Source of the DNA: Desulfobacterales bacterium
Lineage (GTDB): Bacteria; Desulfobacterota; Desulfobacteria; Desulfobacterales; C00003060
Assembly: GCA_030613145.1 (NCBI GenBank)
Contig: JAUWMM010000032.1
Coordinates: 1-10,233, forward strand
Direction: 5' to 3'
Length of the DNA stretch: 10,233 nt
Shown here: piece after piece, positions 128 to 9,973 of the stretch
Layout of the letters: the number at the start of each line of letters is the position of its first letter
Position numbering within the stretch: the stretch's first letter is position 1
The notes under the pieces: generated by a model
The model's input: only the letters and a program-made list of their open reading frames with translations
Told to the model about the DNA's origin: nothing
Database searches by the model: none
Program-made: the position numbers and the translations under genes

Positions 128-3100
128 TCAGGCACGGGCCACCTCATCCAGTTGATCCACTCCTGAGTCGTCCACGACCTGCAATTGTTCAACCGTCTCC
201 TCAGGTTCCATCACAATACGGGTATCTCTATATTGAGTTATTCCTGTACCAGCCGGTATTATACGCCCCATGATAACATTCTCTTTTAGGCCCTTTAAGT
301 GGTCAACCTTGCCCGCAATACTCGCTTCCGTTAGCACCTTCGTAGTTTCTTGAAACGATGCTGCGGAAATAAAACTCTCTGTGCTGAGCGACGCCTTGGT
401 AATTCCCAAAAGCAGAGGTTTGCCGACCGCCGGCTTGCCGCCGCCGGCTACCACCTCACGGTTGATCTCTTCAAAACGCATCTTTTCGACATGTTCTTCC
501 AAGATAAAGTCTGTGTCCCCCGGATCAGATATCCTTACGCGCCTCAACATCTGGCGCACGATCACCTCGATATGTTTATCATTGATTCGAACGCCCTGTA
601 GACGATATACTTCCTGAACTTCGTCTACCATATATCGGGCCAGGCGAAGATCACCTTGGATATTCAAGATGTCATGGGGATTCGCCGACCCCCCCATCAA
701 GGAGTCGCCCGCCTTGATGTAATCCCCTACCAACACGCTGATGTGTTTTCCCCTCGGAATCAAATATTCTTTTTTCTCGCCAACATCAGGCGGCGTTACG
801 GTAATCTTCTGCTTCCCCTTGGCTCCTTTGGAAATAGTCACATACCCATCAATCTCGCTTAGAATCGCAGCCTCTTTTGGTTTTCGACACTCAAACAGCT
901 CAGCCACGCGCGGAAGGCCACCTGTAATATCCTTGGTTTTAGTGGTCTCCCGGGGAAGCTTGGCAATAACATCCCCGGCATTGACAGTATCACCTTCAGA
1001 TACCATCAGAATAGCTCCCACCGGGATAAAATGACGGGCAGCACCACCTGAGGGAAGTTTGGCGGTCTTACCCTTTTCATCCTTTATGGAAATCCTCGGG
1101 CGAACGTCTGTGTCCTTGTGTTGGACGATCACTTGACTCGCCTTCCCTGTCACAGGGTCAACCTTCTCCTGCATGGTCGCCCCCGACAAGATATCCCCAA
1201 ACTTAACAACACCGCCTGTCTCACTAAGAATCGGGGTCGTGTAAGGGTCCCAAGTAACGAGCAGGTCACCAGACTTGACCTTCTGACCGTTTCTGGCCAC
1301 GAAGTGGGCACCGTATATCACCGGATATCGCTCACGTTCTCGGCCCTGGTCGTCCACAATGGCGAATTCTCCCCCTTTGCGGTCCATAACCACAAATTCT
1401 CCATCGGCATTCTCAACCATCTTTACGCCGATGTATTTAACCAGACCGGCGTTTGCAGCCCTGAAATCGGCTTCCTCTGCTGCGCCACGGGCTGTGCCGC
1501 CGATATGGAATGTCCGCATAGTAAGCTGTGTGCCGGGCTCGCCGATAGACTGCGCCGCCAAAATTCCAACTGGCGTTCCAATCTCTACGGGATGCCCATA
1601 TGCCAAATCACGGCCATAACACTTGCAACATACACCGTCTCCGGACTTACATGTCAGTGCTGAACGGATTTTGACCTTGGTAAGACCAGCATTGTCGATC
1701 TTGGCGACCTTCTCTTCGTCAATTTCATCGTTGGCGTGTACCAGCACCTCATCCGTATAAGGATCTCGCATGTCCTCTAAGGCCACTCTGCCGAGCACTC
1801 GCTCACCAATCTTCTTGATAATTTCGCCTCCCTCTACAAGAGGCTCCACATCAATCCCCGTCAACGTTCCACAATCCTCTTCAGTGGTCACACAATCTTG
1901 AGCAACATCTACCAACCTACGAGTCAGGTACCCTGAGTTTGCTGTCTTAAGGGCTGTATCGGCCAGGCCTTTCCGCGCACCGTGCGTTGAGCTAAAGTAC
2001 TGAAGTACGCTGAGCCCCTCCCGAAAGTTTGCCGTAATAGGGGTCTCAATGATCTCGCCAGAGGGTTTGGCCATCAAACCCCGCATTCCAGCTAACTGTC
2101 GCATTTGATCCTTGCTCCCCCTTGATCCTGAATCGGCCATCATATAGACAGCATTGAAGCTCTCTTCCGTGACCGGCTGGCCATTCTCGTCTAACACCGA
2201 CTGACCGTCCGTGTCCACAAGGGGAACAATCTTCATCTCTTCCATCATCTCATTGGCGACATCTGTGGTTGCCTTTGCCCAAATGTCAACAACCTTATTA
2301 TATTTCTCACCGCGGGTTATTAAGCCCTCGGTGTACTGCTCGTTGATCTTGGCAACTAGTGCATCAGCCTTCTTGATGATGTCCCATTTGTTGTGTGGTA
2401 TGACCATGTCATCCACGCATATGGAAATGCCTCCCCGAGTGGCATATCGATAGCCAATGTCCTTCAGGCGGTCTGAAAGGATGACCGTGGCTTTACCCCC
2501 TAAGATCCTATAGCAGTAGTTGACAAGCTGGCTCAGGGCCTTTTTATCCATCACCTTATTGATAAGCTCAAAAGGAAACCCCTCTCTCTTTTCCATTACT
2601 TTAAATATATGATAGCTCCCATTTGCCTTGATGACATCACTGAAGCCACCAACGTCAAGGGTAAATATTGCCTCTGCATCAGATGGATCTATCGTGTATG
2701 CCTCTTCGAGTTGCTCACGCTGCATAAATCCCATGTCACCACCCTTGGCACGATCCCTGCTCTTCGAGATCCTTTGTGCCATCTGGGCAAAATCCTCACC
2801 CTCTTCCAAATCAGCAAGGGCTCCTTTGGCCTCCTTCTCCGAAGAGACCATTATGTGACATAACCGCACAACCAGCTCACGAGAAAGGATTTCTCGAAGG
2901 ATAACACGGCCCACCGTGGTCTCCACCCGCTGGCCACCAACGCGAACAACGATTCTGGCATGAAGACCCACCTCATCCGCATCGTAAGCACAGCGCACCT
3001 CTTCTGGGTTGGCAAAGACCTTGCCTTCTCCTCTTAAGCCAAAAACCGCGCGGGTCATGTAATAAATACCCAATACGATATCCTGAGTAGGTACAATGAT

Positions 3101-4594
3101 GGGATCACCATTGGCAGGGGAAAGGATGTTGTTGGAGGACAACATAAGTACCCGCGCTTCAGTTTGAGATTCTATTGAAAGGGGGATATGAACCGCCATT
3201 TGGTCCCCGTCAAAATCAGCGTTAAACGCCGTGCATACTAAGGGGGGAAGCTGAATCGCCTTGCCTTCAATCAGGATCGGCTCAAATGCCTGCATTCCCA
3301 GCCGATGCAATGTTGGAGCGCGGTTCAGGATTACCGGATATTCCTTCACCACGTCGTCCAGGGTATCCCATACTTCCGGTGTTTCCCGTTCAACAAGTTT
3401 CTTGGCACCCTTGACCGTGGTGACCAATCCCTTTTCTTCGAGCCTGTAAAAAACAAAAGGCTTGAAGAGTTCCAAAGCCATCTTTTTGGGGAGGCCACAT
3501 TGATGGAGGCGCAATTCCGGGCCTATGACAATAACGGTGCGCCCTGAATAATCAACCCGCTTGCCCAACAAATTTTGGCGAAAACGGCCCTGTTTCCCCC
3601 GCAATGCATCACTCAAAGATTTGAGCGGACGACGGTTTGGCCCTGTAACAACCCTTCCATATCGGCCGTTGTCAAATAGTACATCCACGGACTCTTGCAG
3701 CATCCTCTTTTCATTCCGTATGATTATGTCTGGAGCCCGCAAGTCTTGAAGCCGCTTCAAGCGGTTGTTGCGATTGATCACCCTTCGATAGAGGTCGTTT
3801 AGATCAGAGGTGGCAAATCGACCTCCTTCCAAGGGGACCAGCGGTCGCACATCCGGGGGCAGCACAGGAATCACATCCATGATCATCCACTCGGGACGAT
3901 TCCCAGAGTTCCGAAACGCCTCAACGATCTTGAGCTGCTTGGATAATTTTTTGCGCTTTGCCTCTGAACCCGTAGCCATGATCTCAGCCCGTAGCCTCTT
4001 GTATTCCTCGTCCAAATCGAGCCTTTCGAGAAATGTCTTGATGGCTTCAGCCCCGATGCCGACCTCAAACGTATGACCGAATTTTTCCAATGCCTCCCGG
4101 TATGCGTCCTCCGGAAGAAGCTGGCGGGGGGCAAGACTGGTCTCCTTCGGATCTATAACGATATAAGCATCAAAATAGAGGACCTTTTCAAGCTCTTTTA
4201 GGGTCAGATCCAGGAGGTTCCCAATCTTGCCGGGCAGGCTTCTCAAAAACCATATATGGGCTACCGATGTGGCCAGTTTAATGTGGCCCATACGTTCTCG
4301 TCGAACCTTGGACTGAATGACCTCGACCCCGCACTTCTCACAAACCACACCCCTGTGTTTCATCCTCTTATATTTGCCGCAGTTGCATTCATAATCCTTG
4401 GTGGGGCCGAAGATCTTCGCACAAAAAAGCCCGTCCCGCTCCGGCTTAAAGGTTCGGTAGTTTATCGTTTCGGGTTTTTTGATCTCCCCGTAGGACCACC
4501 CTCTGATCTTTTCAGACGATGCCAGCGAGATGCGAACCGCCGTGTAGCTCAGCGGATCCTTGGGTCTGGCAAAAAAACTGTATAAGTCTTCCAA
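128..4594 (-). CDS. rpoC: DNA-directed RNA polymerase subunit beta' with an inserted parvulin-type domain
   Basis: This encodes 1488 residues, compared with 1407 in E. coli. Beta' forms the clamp and carries the catalytic magnesium. The parts in order are zinc site 1 (C70, C72, C85, C88), clamp helices that bind sigma (about 264-306), NADFDGDQM with D460, D462 and D464 holding Mg2+, and Rpb1 domain 3. Domain 3 is interrupted at 571-669 by a PpiC/parvulin-like domain and resumes at [11 protein letters not shown]. The rim helices (about 743-797), F-loop (about 820-845) and bridge helix (about 863-898) follow, then zinc site 2 (C908, C982, C989, C992). The trigger loop holds a proteobacterial SI3 insertion at about 1037-1223. 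The C-terminal region contains [15 protein letters not shown] (1412-1426). Up to the insert the numbering equals E. coli, and at zinc site 2 it is offset by 94. The frame is uninterrupted. The start is TTG and the stop is TGA. Confidence 0.98.
2588..2884 (-). other. Parvulin (PpiC/rotamase)-like domain inserted in RpoC, residues 571-669
   Basis: E. coli RpoC reads TTVGRAILWMIV then PKGLPYSIVNQ. Here [12 protein letters not shown] (559-570) is followed by about 99 foreign residues before [11 protein letters not shown] (670-680). The insert follows the parvulin layout throughout. It opens with a strand and HIMV (H580 onward, family form HILV), then a helix with [22 protein letters not shown] (584-605; family form EAE..L..L..G.DFA.LA). 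[12 protein letters not shown] (618-629) corresponds to [23 protein letters not shown] (642-655) to A.F.L..GE.S.PV, and YHIFKV (661-666) to the closing strand GYHI.KV. Parvulins catalyse cis-trans isomerisation of peptidyl-proline bonds or act as chaperone or binding modules. Whether this one is active cannot be read from the sequence. The domain call is by eye and no profile search was run. Confidence 0.85.
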
Positions 4595-4609: not shown

Positions 4610-7600
4610 CTATTTGCCCTTTTCTTTTTTGTTTTCCATAAGTTCAATATCCAAACCCAAACCCTGTAATTCCTTAACCAGCACATTGAACGATTCGGGA
4701 AGCCCGGCCTCAAGCACATTCTCCCCCTTGACGATTTTTTCGTACATGCGAGTCCTGCCGGCCATGTCATCTGACTTGACCGTCAAAAACTCTTGGAGGG
4801 CATAGGCTGCACCATAGGCCTCCGTGGCCCAGACTTCCATCTCGCCAAGTCGCTGCCCGCCAAACTGAGCCTTTCCTCCCAAGGGCTGTTGTGTTACTAA
4901 CGAATAAGGCCCAATGGAACGGGCGTGGATCTTATCGTCCACCAAATGGTGCAGTTTCATCATGTACATGATGCCAACCGTCACCTTGGTGTCAAAGGGG
5001 CTCCCAATACGCCCGTCGTAGAGCGTGGCCTGGACCTTTACGGAAAAACCGGCCTCAGATAGCAAATCCAAGATCTCGGTCTCCTTGGCTCCGTCAAAAA
5101 CCGGTGTAACCATATAGGCCCCCCCCCGATAACGTTTAGCAAAATCTCTCAACTCTTGGTCGCTCAACACCTCGATTTGTTCCATCTGCTCTTTCAAAGG
5201 AAAAACCGATCTTAGTTTTTTCCTTAAAGCATCGTGATTTTCGGAACGAATCAGTTCGTTGATTTGGTCTCCCAGTCCTTTCGCTGCCCAACCCAAATGG
5301 GTTTCCAAGATCTGTCCTACGTTCATACGGGAGGGCACACCCAAGGGGTTTAGTACAATGTCTACCGGAGTACCATCTTCAAAATAGGGCATATCCTCCT
5401 GAGGCAGGATACAAGAGACCACCCCTTTGTTGCCATGCCGCCCTGCCATCTTGTCGCCCACCGAAAGCCTTCGCTTCATGGCCACATAGACCCTGACAAT
5501 TTTGATGATCCCGGGAGGGAGTTCATCGCCCCCTTCGAATCGATTCACCTGATCCTCAAAACGTTTACGGACCTGGTCGCACTGCTCTCGACATCGTTCC
5601 AGCATTTCATTCATCTGGACAGCCACTGTGGCGTTCTTCAACTCCAGGCCAACCATTTGAGATAAGGAAATCTTCGAAAGGACATCGCCTGAAATACGGT
5701 CGCCCTTCTTGATAAGTTGAACCTTTCCTTTCTTGAAAGAAGCCGCGCAAACTTTGTCCGTTAAAAGGGCTGTCAGGCTCTCCCTGGCAACTCCCTCAAT
5801 GATGGCGAGCTCATCATCTCGATCCCTTTCCAGGGCCTCAATTTTAAGTTTTTCAATGCTCAGGTCACGAGTAGCCTTTTCTACGCCCTTCCTGGAAAAA
5901 ACCTTAGCATCAATCACAACACCGTTTACGCCGGGTGGTACCCGAAGAGAAGTATCCTTCACATCGCCTGCTTTCTCTCCAAAAATTGCTCTCAGCAGCT
6001 TCTCCTCAGGGGATAGCTGGGCCTCACCTTTAGGGGTAATTTTCCCTACCAGGATGTCTCCAGGCTTGACCTCAGCCCCAAGCCTAATAATGCCGCTTTC
6101 GTCCAGGTTCTTTAATGCCTCCTCTCCTACATTCGGTATGTCACGGGTAATCTCCTCTTTACCCAGTTTGGTATCACGAGCCACCGTATCAAACTGTTCA
6201 ATATGAATCGATGTGAAAACCCCGTCTCGTACCAGACGCTCACTCACCAGAATAGAATCCTCAAAGTTGTACCCCCCCCAAGGCATAAAGGCGACCATCA
6301 CATTCTTGCCCAACGCAAGCTCTCCCCTTCTTGTAGCTGGGCCGTCTGCGATCACATCCCCTTTCTTGACAAGGTCGCCTTTTTTGACAATAGGCCGATG
6401 ATTAAAACAGGTATTCTGATTGGAACGAGAAAACTTCCTCAGTTTATAGATGGTTACCTGCCTGGCCTCCTGGGCATAGCCCGCCCGCTCCGGACGGTGG
6501 CCAGAGCCATCACCATTGCCTGTGTGCTTGACCACGATACGCTTTGCATCCACGCCCACAACTTCACCGTCACAGTCAGCTACTAGGGTAACCCCTGAAT
6601 CTATAGCAACCACATCTTCCAAGCCTGTAGCGACGAGCGGAGCGCCGCTCACAAGCAGCGGTACGGCCTGGCGCTGCATGTTGGAGCCCATGAGAGCCCT
6701 GTTGGCATCGTCATTTTCCAGAAAAGGAATCAGTGATGCCGCGACACTTACTAACTGATGAGGGGAGATATCCATGAGTTCAATCTCTTCGCGCTTGACC
6801 ATCAAGAATTCACCAGCAACGCGCGCTGAGACCAAGGGATTCACAAACCGGCCCTTTTCGTCCAAGGGGGCATTGGCTTGAGCAATGCTATGTTTCTCTT
6901 CGTCCAAGGCGGTTAAAGATTTTATCCTGTTTGTGACCTGGCTGTTCTCAACCACTCGGTAAGGCGTCTCAATAAAGCCAAGCTTGTTCACGCGGGCATA
7001 TGTACTCAGTGAGACAATCAAACCAATGTTAGGCCCCTCTGGGGTCTCAATGGGACAGATACGTCCGTAGTGTGTTGGATGAACGTCCCTTACCTCAAAG
7101 CCTGCACGCTCCCGCGTAAGTCCGCCAGGGCCCAAGGCACTTAGGCGCCTTTTATGGGTGATTTCGGAAAGCGGGTTAGTTTGGTCCATAAACTGGGAAA
7201 GCTGACTGGTGCCGAAGAATTCTTTCACGACTGCAGAAACCGGCTTGGAATTTATCAGGTCATGGGGCATCAATGCCTCAACCTCTTGCAGGCTCATCCG
7301 CTCCTTGATGGCACGTTCCATCCTCACCAGTCCTATACGGTATTGGTTTTCCAAAAGTTCCCCCACGGCCCGCACCCGCCGGTTGCCCAGATGATCGATA
7401 TCATCGACCGGGCCTTGGGTGTCTTTTAAATCGACCAGGATCTTTGTGGTGAGCAGGACGTCCTCTTCCCGAAGCGTACGCATATCGAGGGGCACTTCGT
7501 CCTGGCGCAACCCCAACCGAATATTAGTCTTCAAACGCCCTACTTCCGCAAGGTCATAATGAGACGGGCTAAAAAAGAGCTGATGACAAAGTTGCTGGGC

Positions 7601-8764
7601 CACCTCTATGGTGGGCGGATTACTTGGCCGGAGCCTTCGATAGATCTCCAGCAATGCATCATCCTTGGTCTCCACCTTGTCAAGGAGTAAGGTCTTGCTA
7701 ATGGAATCACTTGTCGTGACGTTGTCTATGTAGAGTATATTAAAACTTGATATCCGGGCAGCCGAGATCTTCTTAAAAACCTCTTCATCAATCACTTCGT
7801 TATAAGAGGCAACCACCTCTTCACTCTTGGGGTCTATCAAGGTGTGAGCCAAGATCTTGTTTTCAATATCTTCAACCTGAATTGATACGCGTTCGACTTT
7901 TGCTTCCAAGAGATGTTTGAGAGTATTTTTTGTAAAACGGCGCCCCTTTTTGATGATTACCTCACCGGTCTGTGGGTGTTTTACCGATTTTGACACGCGC
8001 TGCCCTACTAAGAGGTCTTTGTCAACCGTTTTGTACAGATGCTTGCCCGTCACCTCGATCCTTTCAGTACGATAAAAACGAGATAGAATTTCCTCCCCTG
8101 AATACCCAAAGGCCTTCAATAGTAAAGTGGCGGGAAATTTGCGGCGGCGGTCGATCCTAACATAAACCACATCCTTGGGGTCAATTTCCAAATCGATCCA
8201 AGAGCCCCGTACTGGGATAACCCTGGCCGTATAAAGGACTTTGCCACTCGAATGCGTCTTGCCCTTGTCATGATCAAAGAAGACCCCCGGTGACCTGTGG
8301 AGCTGACTTACGACAACCCGCTCAGTCCCGTTGATAATAAATGTACCCCCCTTAGTCATGAGCGGAATGGTACCAAAATAGATCTCCTGTTCCTTAATGT
8401 CCCGAATATTCTGGACTTCGGTCTCTCTGTCCGTCTCATAAACCACAAGCCGAACCGTGATACGAATCGGAATCTCATAGGTCATCCCTTTGTCGATACA
8501 TTCGTACTCATCATACTTGACCTCTCCAAAGCTATAAGAAACAAACCCTAAAGAGGCAGTGCCCGTAAAATCCTTTATAGGAAAGACACTTTTAAAGGCA
8601 CCCTGAAGGCCTTTGTCTTCTCTCTTTTCCGGCGGAACATCCCTTTGCAAAAATCGGGCATAGGATTCTTTTTGCATCTCAACCAAATCAGGAAATTCGG
8701 CAATCTTTGGAATCTTTCCGAAGTTTCTTCTTATCGGTTTAGCTGACAAGAGTCTGTTGGGCAT
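4610..8764 (-). CDS. rpoB: DNA-directed RNA polymerase subunit beta
   Basis: This encodes 1384 residues, compared with 1342 in E. coli. Beta forms one pincer of RNA polymerase and contributes to the active site and RNA exit path. Recognisable parts in order are the N-terminus with [21 protein letters not shown] (18-38), the lobe and protrusion, and the rifampicin pocket [20 protein letters not shown] (520-539). Q524, D527, H537, R540, S542 and L544 all match wild-type drug-contact residues, so rifampicin sensitivity is predicted. Next come [12 protein letters not shown] (571-582), the flap, a betai9-type helical insertion at about 970-1080, and the catalytic region [19 protein letters not shown] with K1097 and K1105. 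The C-terminal clamp and anchor contains [12 protein letters not shown] (1302-1313). A Gly/Arg-rich loop at 747-770 is about 11 residues longer than in E. coli. The gene is complete, starts at ATG 8764 and ends in TAG 15 nt before rpoC. Confidence 0.98.
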
Positions 8765-8769
8765 AAGGT

Positions 8770-8775
8770 CTCCCT
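8770..8775 (-). promoter_or_regulatory. Ribosome binding site fixing the rpoB start at 8764
   Basis: AGGGAG lies 5 nt before the ATG at 8764. The frame stays open upstream to a GTG at 8872, but that GTG has no Shine-Dalgarno site. The 36 extra codons would run through the stem-loop and the repeated words of the spacer and encode repeat-like text such as [12 protein letters not shown]. The ATG at 8764 gives the expected beta-subunit N-terminus. Confidence 0.85.
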
Positions 8776-8813
8776 GTTTTTTGTTCGTTATTCTGAAATC
8801 GTTATTTGTTATT

Positions 8814-8860
8814 TGCAACTCGTTACGTCCTACGTTTGACGGGTAACGTAACGAACTGCA
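8814..8860 (-). other. 15-bp stem-loop in the rplL-rpoB spacer
   Basis: In the transcript UGCAGUUCGUUACGU (8860 to 8846) pairs with ACGUAACGAGUUGCA (8828 to 8814), giving 15 continuous pairs of which two are G-U, around a 17-nt loop. The sequence after the stem is AAAUAACAAAUAACG with no U-run, so it does not look like an intrinsic terminator. In E. coli the rplL-rpoB interval holds a partial attenuator and an RNase III processing hairpin that set the ratio of ribosomal protein to polymerase. The position here is equivalent, and the same role is an inference. The 150-nt spacer (8765-8914) also holds one copy of the 25-bp repeat, and AT-rich GTTATT words at 8786-8814. Confidence 0.6.
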
Positions 8861-8877
8861 CAACAGATTCACGATTC

Positions 8878-8927
8878 GCGGTCAGACTATTATTTGACCT
8901 CAGCGGTCAGACTATTATTTGACCTCA
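8878..8927 (-). repeat. Perfect 25-bp tandem duplication over the rplL stop codon
   Basis: The plus-strand unit that begins GCGGTCAGACTATTATTTGA and ends CCTCA occurs twice without mismatch, at 8878-8902 and 8903-8927. The copy at 8903-8927 contains the final rplL codons (Glu-Val-Lys), the TAA and the TAG. The other copy lies just downstream in the rplL-rpoB spacer and is out of frame, because 25 is not a multiple of three. Each unit contains GGTCA and TGACC separated by 10 nt, so each could form a weak 5-bp hairpin. The absence of mismatches suggests a recent slippage or duplication, or an assembly artefact. Confidence 0.95.
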
Positions 8928-9298
8928 ACGGTTGCGCCAGCCTCTTCGAGCTGTTTCTTGATATTTTCGGCATCCTCTTTAGAAACCCCTTCCTGAACTG
9001 CCTTAGGAGCCTCATCCACCACAGCCTTGGCCTCTTTTAAACCAAGGCCGGTTATTGCCCTGATCGCCTTGATGACCTGAATCTTCTTATCCCCTATTTG
9101 ACTTAAGATGACATCAAACTCGGTTTGCTCCTCAGCCACGGCCTGGGATGCCTGCCCACCAGGCATAGCAGCCATGGCAACCGGAGCTGCTGCCGACACC
9201 CCGAATTTTTCTTCCAATTCCTTCACCAATTCGGAAAGCTCCAGTACAGACATACTGGAAATGAACTCAATGAGATCTTCTTTGGTAACATTAGCCAT
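8915..9298 (-). CDS. rplL: 50S ribosomal protein L7/L12
   Basis: This encodes 127 residues, a normal length for the family. L7/L12 dimers form the flexible stalk that recruits EF-G, EF-Tu, IF2 and release factors and promotes their GTPase activity. Three parts are visible. The N-terminal dimerisation and L10-binding helices are at about residues 3-32 ([20 protein letters not shown]). The Ala/Gly/Pro-rich hinge is at about 35-55 ([16 protein letters not shown]). The C-terminal factor-binding domain is at about 59-127, with the diagnostic [16 protein letters not shown] and the ending [10 protein letters not shown]. The gene ends in TAA followed at once by TAG. Its last codons and stop lie inside a 25-bp tandem duplication, but the protein ends at the usual position and is not altered. 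Confidence 0.97.
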
Positions 9299-9306
9299 TC
9301 TGTGTG

Positions 9307-9314
9307 TCCTCCTC
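9307..9314 (-). promoter_or_regulatory. Ribosome binding site fixing the rplL start at 9298
   Basis: GAGGAGGA lies 8 nt before the ATG at 9298. An in-frame ATG six codons upstream (9316) overlaps this site and has no Shine-Dalgarno sequence of its own. The downstream ATG also gives the normal L7/L12 N-terminus MANVTKEDL. The shorter start is therefore chosen. Confidence 0.85.
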
Positions 9315-9328
9315 ATTTATGAACTTAA

Positions 9329-9341
9329 GGGGCTTCGCCCC
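9329..9341 (-). other. Short GC hairpin upstream of the rplL ribosome binding site
   Basis: GGGGC-GAA-GCCCC forms a perfect 5-bp stem with a 3-nt loop, 14 nt before the rplL Shine-Dalgarno site. It is followed by UUAAGUUCAUAAAUG rather than a U-run, so it is not a convincing terminator. It could stabilise or separate the rplL message, which is typically translated more often than rplJ. That role is inference. Confidence 0.5.
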
Positions 9342-9364
9342 AACAGGAGTAGCGGACCGCTTCT

Positions 9365-9404
9365 AACACCCACTATTCCAGTACTCCATTACTCCAACAC
9401 TCCA
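9365..9404 (-). repeat. Five tandem octamers, consensus TGGAGTNN, in the rplJ-rplL spacer
   Basis: On the minus strand five consecutive 8-nt units can be read: TGGAGTGT, TGGAGTAA, TGGAGTAC, TGGAATAG and TGGGTGTT. The first three share TGGAGT exactly, the fourth has one change, and the fifth is degenerate. The array lies in the 144-nt gap between rplJ and rplL and is transcribed with them. It has no coding potential that I can recognise. Similar short-period intergenic arrays occur in some deltaproteobacterial genomes as far as I recall, which would make it an interspersed element. Its function is unknown. Confidence 0.8.
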
Positions 9405-9442
9405 TTCCGCCAGAGGCGAAAAGAAATTCCCATACCATTCAA

Positions 9443-9973
9443 TTATCCGTCTGACGCCCCTTCTTTTTGTTGCTTGATTGCCCCTAGGATACCCATAAAA
9501 TTCCTCAGCACGCCATTTAAAACCGTCACCAAACCGGTTACAGGCGCGTTCATCAGAGAGAGCAGTTGTGTCAATAAGACTTCATGGGATGGAAGCTTCG
9601 AGAGCCTTTCAATACCGGCAAGATCAATGACCTGACCGTCTACTACCCCGGCTTTAATTTCCAAAGTGGAGTTATCTTCGCTAAACTTCATTAGAATCCT
9701 AGCCGGAGCAACCGGGTCTTCATAGCTCAATGCCACAGCACACGGCCCAAAGAAATGTTCCTTCAACAGCGCCATGTCGGTTCCATCTGATGCCCTTGTC
9801 ATAAGGGTATTCTTGACCACTCGGTATTCAACCGAACCTTCTCTGAGTTGACCCCGCAACTCGTCCATGGCGGACATATTCAGGCCTCTGAAGTCCGTAA
9901 GTACGACGGCCTTTGCCGTTGAAAATTTCTCATGTAGGGCTTCAACAACTTTTTCTTTTTCGGATTGCTTCAA
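9443..9973 (-). CDS. rplJ: 50S ribosomal protein L10 (P0 stalk base)
   Basis: This encodes a 176-residue protein, slightly longer than E. coli L10 (165). L10 sits on the GTPase-associated centre of 23S rRNA and anchors L7/L12 dimers, which recruit and stimulate elongation and initiation factors. The N-terminal domain shows the family landmarks VVLTDFRGLNM (residues 23-33) and YRVVKNTLM (50-58). The C-terminal part from about residue 135 to 170 (TQLLSLMNAPVTGLVTVLNG onward) is the helix that binds L7/L12. The start is TTG, giving KQSEKEKVVE after the initiator, which is where the family normally begins. It lies after the rplJ leader and 144 nt before rplL. L10 is usually the translational repressor of this transcript. 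No defects are visible. Confidence 0.96.
   Translation of the reverse strand: MKQSEKEKVVEALHEKFSTAKAVVLTDFRGLNMSAMDELRGQLREGSVEYRVVKNTLMTRASDGTDMALLKEHFFGPCAVALSYEDPVAPARILMKFSEDNSTLEIKAGVVDGQVIDLAGIERLSKLPSHEVLLTQLLSLMNAPVTGLVTVLNGVLRNFMGILGAIKQQKEGASDG

Follow-up and report, generated by a model that had tools for sequence, protein, structure and literature searches.

An insertion of about 99 residues in the RNA polymerase beta' subunit (RpoC) of a Desulfobacterales bacterium is virtually certain to be a parvulin domain, held in frame within Rpb1 domain 3 and occurring clade-wide in one order of the phylum Desulfobacterota. The best explanation for its presence, to which we give a probability of roughly 0.55, is that it would act as a binding module whose isomerase activity is weak or lost.

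Position and identity of the inserted domain

In the window, i.e. the whole stretch of 10,233 nucleotides that was analysed, rpoC occupies positions 128 to 4594 of the minus strand and reads without a break into 1488 residues, as had been claimed; the product scores 1735.9 bits against the rpoC profile TIGR02386 (NCBIfam), and Rpb1 domains 1-5 are all found in it (Pfam). Its ordinary neighbours rpoB, rplL and rplJ lie upstream on the same strand (4610-9973). The insertion spans residues 571-669 (2588-2884, minus strand) and stands between host segments of 12 and 11 residues. Aligned to E. coli beta' are the 11 residues that precede it (560-570; 2885-2917, minus strand), which match E. coli 573-583, and the 15 residues that follow it (670-684; 2543-2587, minus strand). 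Residue 570 pairs with 583 and residue 675 with 589 of E. coli K-12 RpoC, which yields the predicted 99 extra residues net, with ends uncertain by about three residues (the E. coli alignment puts the gap at 574-672). The insertion point corresponds to E. coli beta' G586/L587, a loop in Rpb1 domain 3, so that the placement of the flanks in this domain held up. The numbering of distant landmarks behaves as the original prediction had stated: the zinc-site cysteines 908, 982, 989 and 992 are each shifted by 94 from E. coli 814, 888, 895 and 898, and NADFDGD, with the upstream magnesium aspartates, starts at the identical residue number in both proteins. The observation itself is confirmed in every detail tested.

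Two features of the same loop may be recorded here. When cyanobacterial models are matched to RpoC, the rpoC1 stretch stops at residue 575, leaving 41 positions of the model unused, and the rpoC2 stretch starts at 678; by these model matches, the RpoC1/RpoC2 split lies around the insertion site (window 2573-2878, about residues 573-674). One outgroup family (f120; L063, L070) has a short unrelated insertion of about 14 residues in this loop, before a conserved 10-residue block.

Both Pfam parvulin families are significant in whole RpoC, Rotamase (PF00639) with E 4.1e-10 and 40.9 bits against a cut-off of 21.7, and Rotamase_3 (PF13616) with E 1e-9 and 39.4 bits against 22.5. Taken alone, the insertion gives E 4.9e-12. 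Of 92 aligned insertions, that of the window included, 86 match Rotamase by themselves at E <= 0.01; as far as sequence goes, the match is far beyond chance. The predicted structure has a parvulin fold across the insertion's whole model, and the dual-histidine pocket that goes with this fold is present as H580 (codon 2855-2857, minus strand) and H662 (codon 2609-2611, minus strand). The parvulin/PpiC-type identity proposed from the DNA letters is thus borne out by agreement of Pfam, a PDB profile, the predicted fold and comparative genomics, and the two outcomes that would have spoken against it, namely the lack of a profile match and parvulin fold or an assembly error, did not occur. We infer that the insertion folds as a separate module.

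Distribution, descent and constraint

How widely is this arrangement shared? Within Desulfobacterota, to which the surveys were confined apart from E. coli, a first survey found the insertion in all 22 genomes of the window's genus and in 64 of the 74 genomes from the rest of the order (in two of them in pieces); six gave no RpoC match and four, read directly, have RpoC without it (G026, G039, G043 and G084). Counted by family group, 62 of 71 carry it, four do not and five gave no RpoC match. A second survey, which overlaps the first, took genomes at least 90% complete (the window's excluded) and judged presence by per-genome E-value: among 242 genomes of the order, 222 have the insertion (in pieces in G078 and G262), five, again read directly, have RpoC without it (G026, G043, G218, G225 and G226) and 15 gave no RpoC match. 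Outside the order, none of 58 genomes gave an RpoC match spanning the insertion, and it is absent from all 22 loci read directly. The insertion is therefore clade-wide in a single order and, being in frame, between conserved blocks and clade-restricted within the phylum, is an RNA polymerase beta' lineage-specific insertion. Named carriers include Desulfosarcina widdelii (a complete genome, placed by NCBI in class Desulfobacteria, order Desulfobacterales), Candidatus Desulfaltia, Desulfatitalea and Olavius symbionts; they come from a scan in which 247 places matched the flank pattern and 153 were confirmed, the best 80 of the 153 being kept. In G262 (L165, L176, L170, L181), RpoC lies in two frames on one contig, broken within the insertion, and another contig carries a further rpoC fragment; the broken RpoC is probably a genome bin error.

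A host tree of RpoC minus the insertion columns (FastTree, 114 rows; 17 loci dropped beforehand, and L164 omitted with no frame picked) has the insertion-free f64 and f6 branching first in the order and the window's genus as sister of the other carriers. The presence label needs at least four changes on this tree, taken here as a single gain and losses in f19, f23 and G218, with more losses if f64 and f6 also lost the insertion. The G218 loss is a clean in-frame removal, beside relatives that retain the insertion. The sequences support an in-frame entry of the parvulin domain into rpoC in an early ancestor of the order, a single event if the trees are read most simply, and its retention since then under purifying selection, apart from a few clean losses.

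Where could it have come from? A quick tree built on 106 columns from 42 insertions and 41 other parvulin domains unites the insertions in one clade (SH-aLRT 99); the next larger clade (support 97) adds to them nothing but six free parvulins of 309-435 residues, four of which have 313-314. Parvulins of the type linked to mfd (e.g. L184:8835-9776) share up to 43% identity with the insertion region of the window. In G016, a member of the window's genus, a 313-residue parvulin and a SurA-like gene adjoin mfd (L184:7840-13470); the mfd link may be coincidence. This 313-residue protein is of the type to which the insertions' nearest free relatives in the sample belong; it differs from the insertions in being encoded by a separate gene and in having, as judged by eye, a lipoprotein-like N-terminal signal. 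Free parvulins outside the order (319-446 residues) reach 44% identity to the query, so that the ancestor may have had a donor within reach.

Within the window's genus, the median omega is 0.32 for the insertion (70 pairs), versus 0.12 and 0.14 for the neighbouring stretches (95 and 67 pairs) and 0.02 for core codons 330-469 (75 pairs), as calculated from 20 sequences (L014 and L021 omitted) over pairs with dS of 0.02-1.5. The insertion is thus constrained by purifying selection that is weaker than that on its host.

Pocket residues and possible roles

Pocket conservation was followed in an alignment of 92 of 99 different insertions, 22 from the window's genus and 70 from outside it, with insertion residues assigned to what we take to be the corresponding Pin1 positions; the seven insertions with longer internal loops were omitted (L057, L109, L112, L113, L115, L116 and L118). 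Histidine occupies the position of H580 (Pin1 H59) in 82/92 rows and that of H662 (Pin1 H157) in 80/92; both are found in 76, and one or both are missing in 16, as they are, by eye, in five of the seven longer insertions. In some families (L057, L112, L116, L118) loops within the insertion are enlarged, and both pocket histidines are gone in L116 and L118. Among the 70 rows from outside the genus, the H59 column ranks first of 95 in conservation, H157 fourth, F134 sixth and M130 fifteenth, the C113 position 35th and the S154 position 53rd; the advantage of ten Pin1-pocket positions, taken jointly, over random columns is only marginal (permutation p 0.039). The position of the catalytic Cys of Pin1 (C113) or Asp of PrsA is S612 in the window (codon 2759-2761, minus strand), with S in 61, A in 10, G in 9, D in 5 and C in none of the 92 rows. 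Further insertions were collected by text pattern from 95 of 100 extra loci, a set that overlaps the alignment (e.g. L189 and L034) and from which L215, L237, L269, L271 and L285 are left uncounted for want of a pattern match; four of these 95 have C or D there. As for the 41 free parvulin rows from the same genomes, which are domains (one gene is entered twice, as L133 and L159) and in which the longer first loop of many rows makes column 580 unreliable, position 612 is G in 15, C in 10, D in 9, A in 6 and T in 1. Residue 629 is F in 88 of the 95 further insertions versus M in 28/41 free rows, and residue 664 is F in 90/95 versus I in 31/41, so that the insertions have aromatic residues of their own at both positions. 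Overall, the conservation pattern suggests specialisation of the pocket more than its decay, although histidines have been lost in some lineages.

Whether the domain is a foldase or a proline-binding module had been left undecided by the original prediction, and the second of these options fits somewhat better: the window has Ser in place of the catalytic Cys/Asp, and only 5 of the 92 rows have either of these two residues there. According to the available text of PMC6983177, no activity was detected for Pin1 C113S, although it kept target binding. The RpoC domain may similarly bind a proline-containing peptide and be a poor enzyme. The retained dual-histidine/aromatic pocket would then grip a partner protein by a stretch that contains proline, and isomerase activity would be weak or lost as a result of the mostly Ser, Ala or Gly residues at the catalytic position. 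The domain would serve to tether or sense that partner, be it a transcription factor, a protein associated with the ribosome or a nascent chain. What tells against a binding module is that the insertion evolves faster than its host; moreover, it seems to have been lost at least three times, so that some lineages can dispense with it. The rows that lack one or both histidines and the marginal joint conservation of the pocket positions also speak against it, and the histidines may be kept for the fold, as argued for Pin1 in the available text of PMC6983177, where the pair mainly holds the structure of the site. Of 20 genomes, some with and some without the insertion, 19 have GreA and all have the DksA zinc finger; the insertion therefore does not seem to replace these factors. 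The residues that we take to form ppGpp site 1, K615-D622, follow some 30 residues downstream of the insertion, a separation in sequence and not a measured distance. That site lies at the beta'-omega interface (PMC6970531).

Could the domain instead be a nearly neutral passenger, captured in frame at a permissive loop as a harmless folded module with no binding partner? The faster evolution just mentioned would suit such an origin, as would the losses, one of them clean and recent, the decay of histidines in some lineages (L116 among them) and the loop itself, which seems change-tolerant given that the cyanobacterial rpoC1 and rpoC2 matches end and start around the insertion. An omega of about 0.3 is, however, not 1, the insertion persists in most family groups of the order, and the pocket histidines are among its best conserved columns, all of which makes a passenger rather unlikely. 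We also consider it unlikely that the domain is an active peptidyl-prolyl isomerase, whose targets would be protein that emerges during coupled transcription-translation, factors bound to the polymerase or the assembly of the enzyme itself. The fold and both histidines are retained. Position 612 is variable in the free parvulins as well, and since 22 of their 41 rows have neither C nor D, loss of catalysis cannot be concluded from that position alone; some activity is also left in Pin1 C113D and C113A, according to the same part of PMC6983177. Yet the residue that prevails in the insertions is Ser, and C113S is the only one of these three Pin1 changes for which that text gives no detected activity; in addition, the S154 position is poorly ranked, and the GGDLG aspartate, present in 30 of the 41 free rows and in 19 of 22 insertions within the window's genus (as GGDMGF), is found in only 6 of 70 outside it. 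Finally, there is a negligible chance that the segment reflects an error of assembly or frame, or that it is excised from the protein like an intein: the bin to which the window belongs is fragmented and 65% complete, but an artefact is refuted by dozens of separate genomes, some of them single-contig (G031, G086) and one the complete Desulfosarcina widdelii genome, while the insertion is a complete parvulin fold whose ends, by eye, show no splicing residues of the His-Asn-Cys/Ser type by which intein junctions are known, its first residue being Pro in 88/92.

Known systems and significance

Among known systems, the insertion comes close to PrsA, PpiC and SurA, whose parvulin domains (PF00639, PF13616) share with it the sequence profile, the fold and the dual-histidine pocket. 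These are free proteins, many of them secreted or membrane-linked, whereas the insertion sits in RNA polymerase, mostly lacks Cys/Asp at the C113 position and has pocket aromatics of its own. Its other point of reference is the set of lineage-specific insertions in RNA polymerase beta and beta' such as SI3/beta'i6, HABAS and BEAN, which are likewise in frame, clade-restricted and lodged in a conserved subunit (PMC11515920, main text); there, in a 2024 survey, beta' insertions are mostly HABAS, with BEAN and sLC also represented. The insertion has the predicted fold of an enzyme family; its parvulin fold over the whole model and its matches to parvulin profiles speak against a HABAS or BEAN domain. 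In cyanobacteria the chain is cut into RpoC1 and RpoC2, by the model matches around this place; the RpoC described here is unbroken and has gained a domain.

The raw combination is already visible in databases, as Pfam's precomputed annotation shows RpoC together with a parvulin domain, and it belongs among the RNA polymerase lineage-specific insertions, with an unusual guest. Within the literature searched (titles and starts of abstracts), no discussion of a parvulin insertion in RpoC was found: the main text of PMC11515920 has no parvulin, isomerase, rotamase or Desulfo, the available text of the 2026 domain-insertion survey PMC13114784 no parvulin, isomerase or rotamase, and that of PMC2939025 no parvulin or isomerase.

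What, then, is the significance of a foldase-family domain in this position? Insertions in the two large polymerase subunits mark clades and may have regulatory roles (PMC11515920, main text). Fixed in the polymerase of an order of sulfate reducers, a domain of this family would offer a new way into how transcription is connected with protein folding or with partner proteins in these bacteria. The insertion would also serve as a phylogenetic marker for them; it marks a natural beta' insertion site near the cyanobacterial split, and the lineages that have lost it offer natural controls. We put forward only tentatively, at somewhat less than even odds, that the polymerase of a whole order carries a reader of proline peptides, in which the parvulin pocket in the pore domain would capture a proline-bearing partner or nascent chain and feed its state into transcription. 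If true, this would be a polymerase-borne signalling or coupling domain of a kind that we have not found described.
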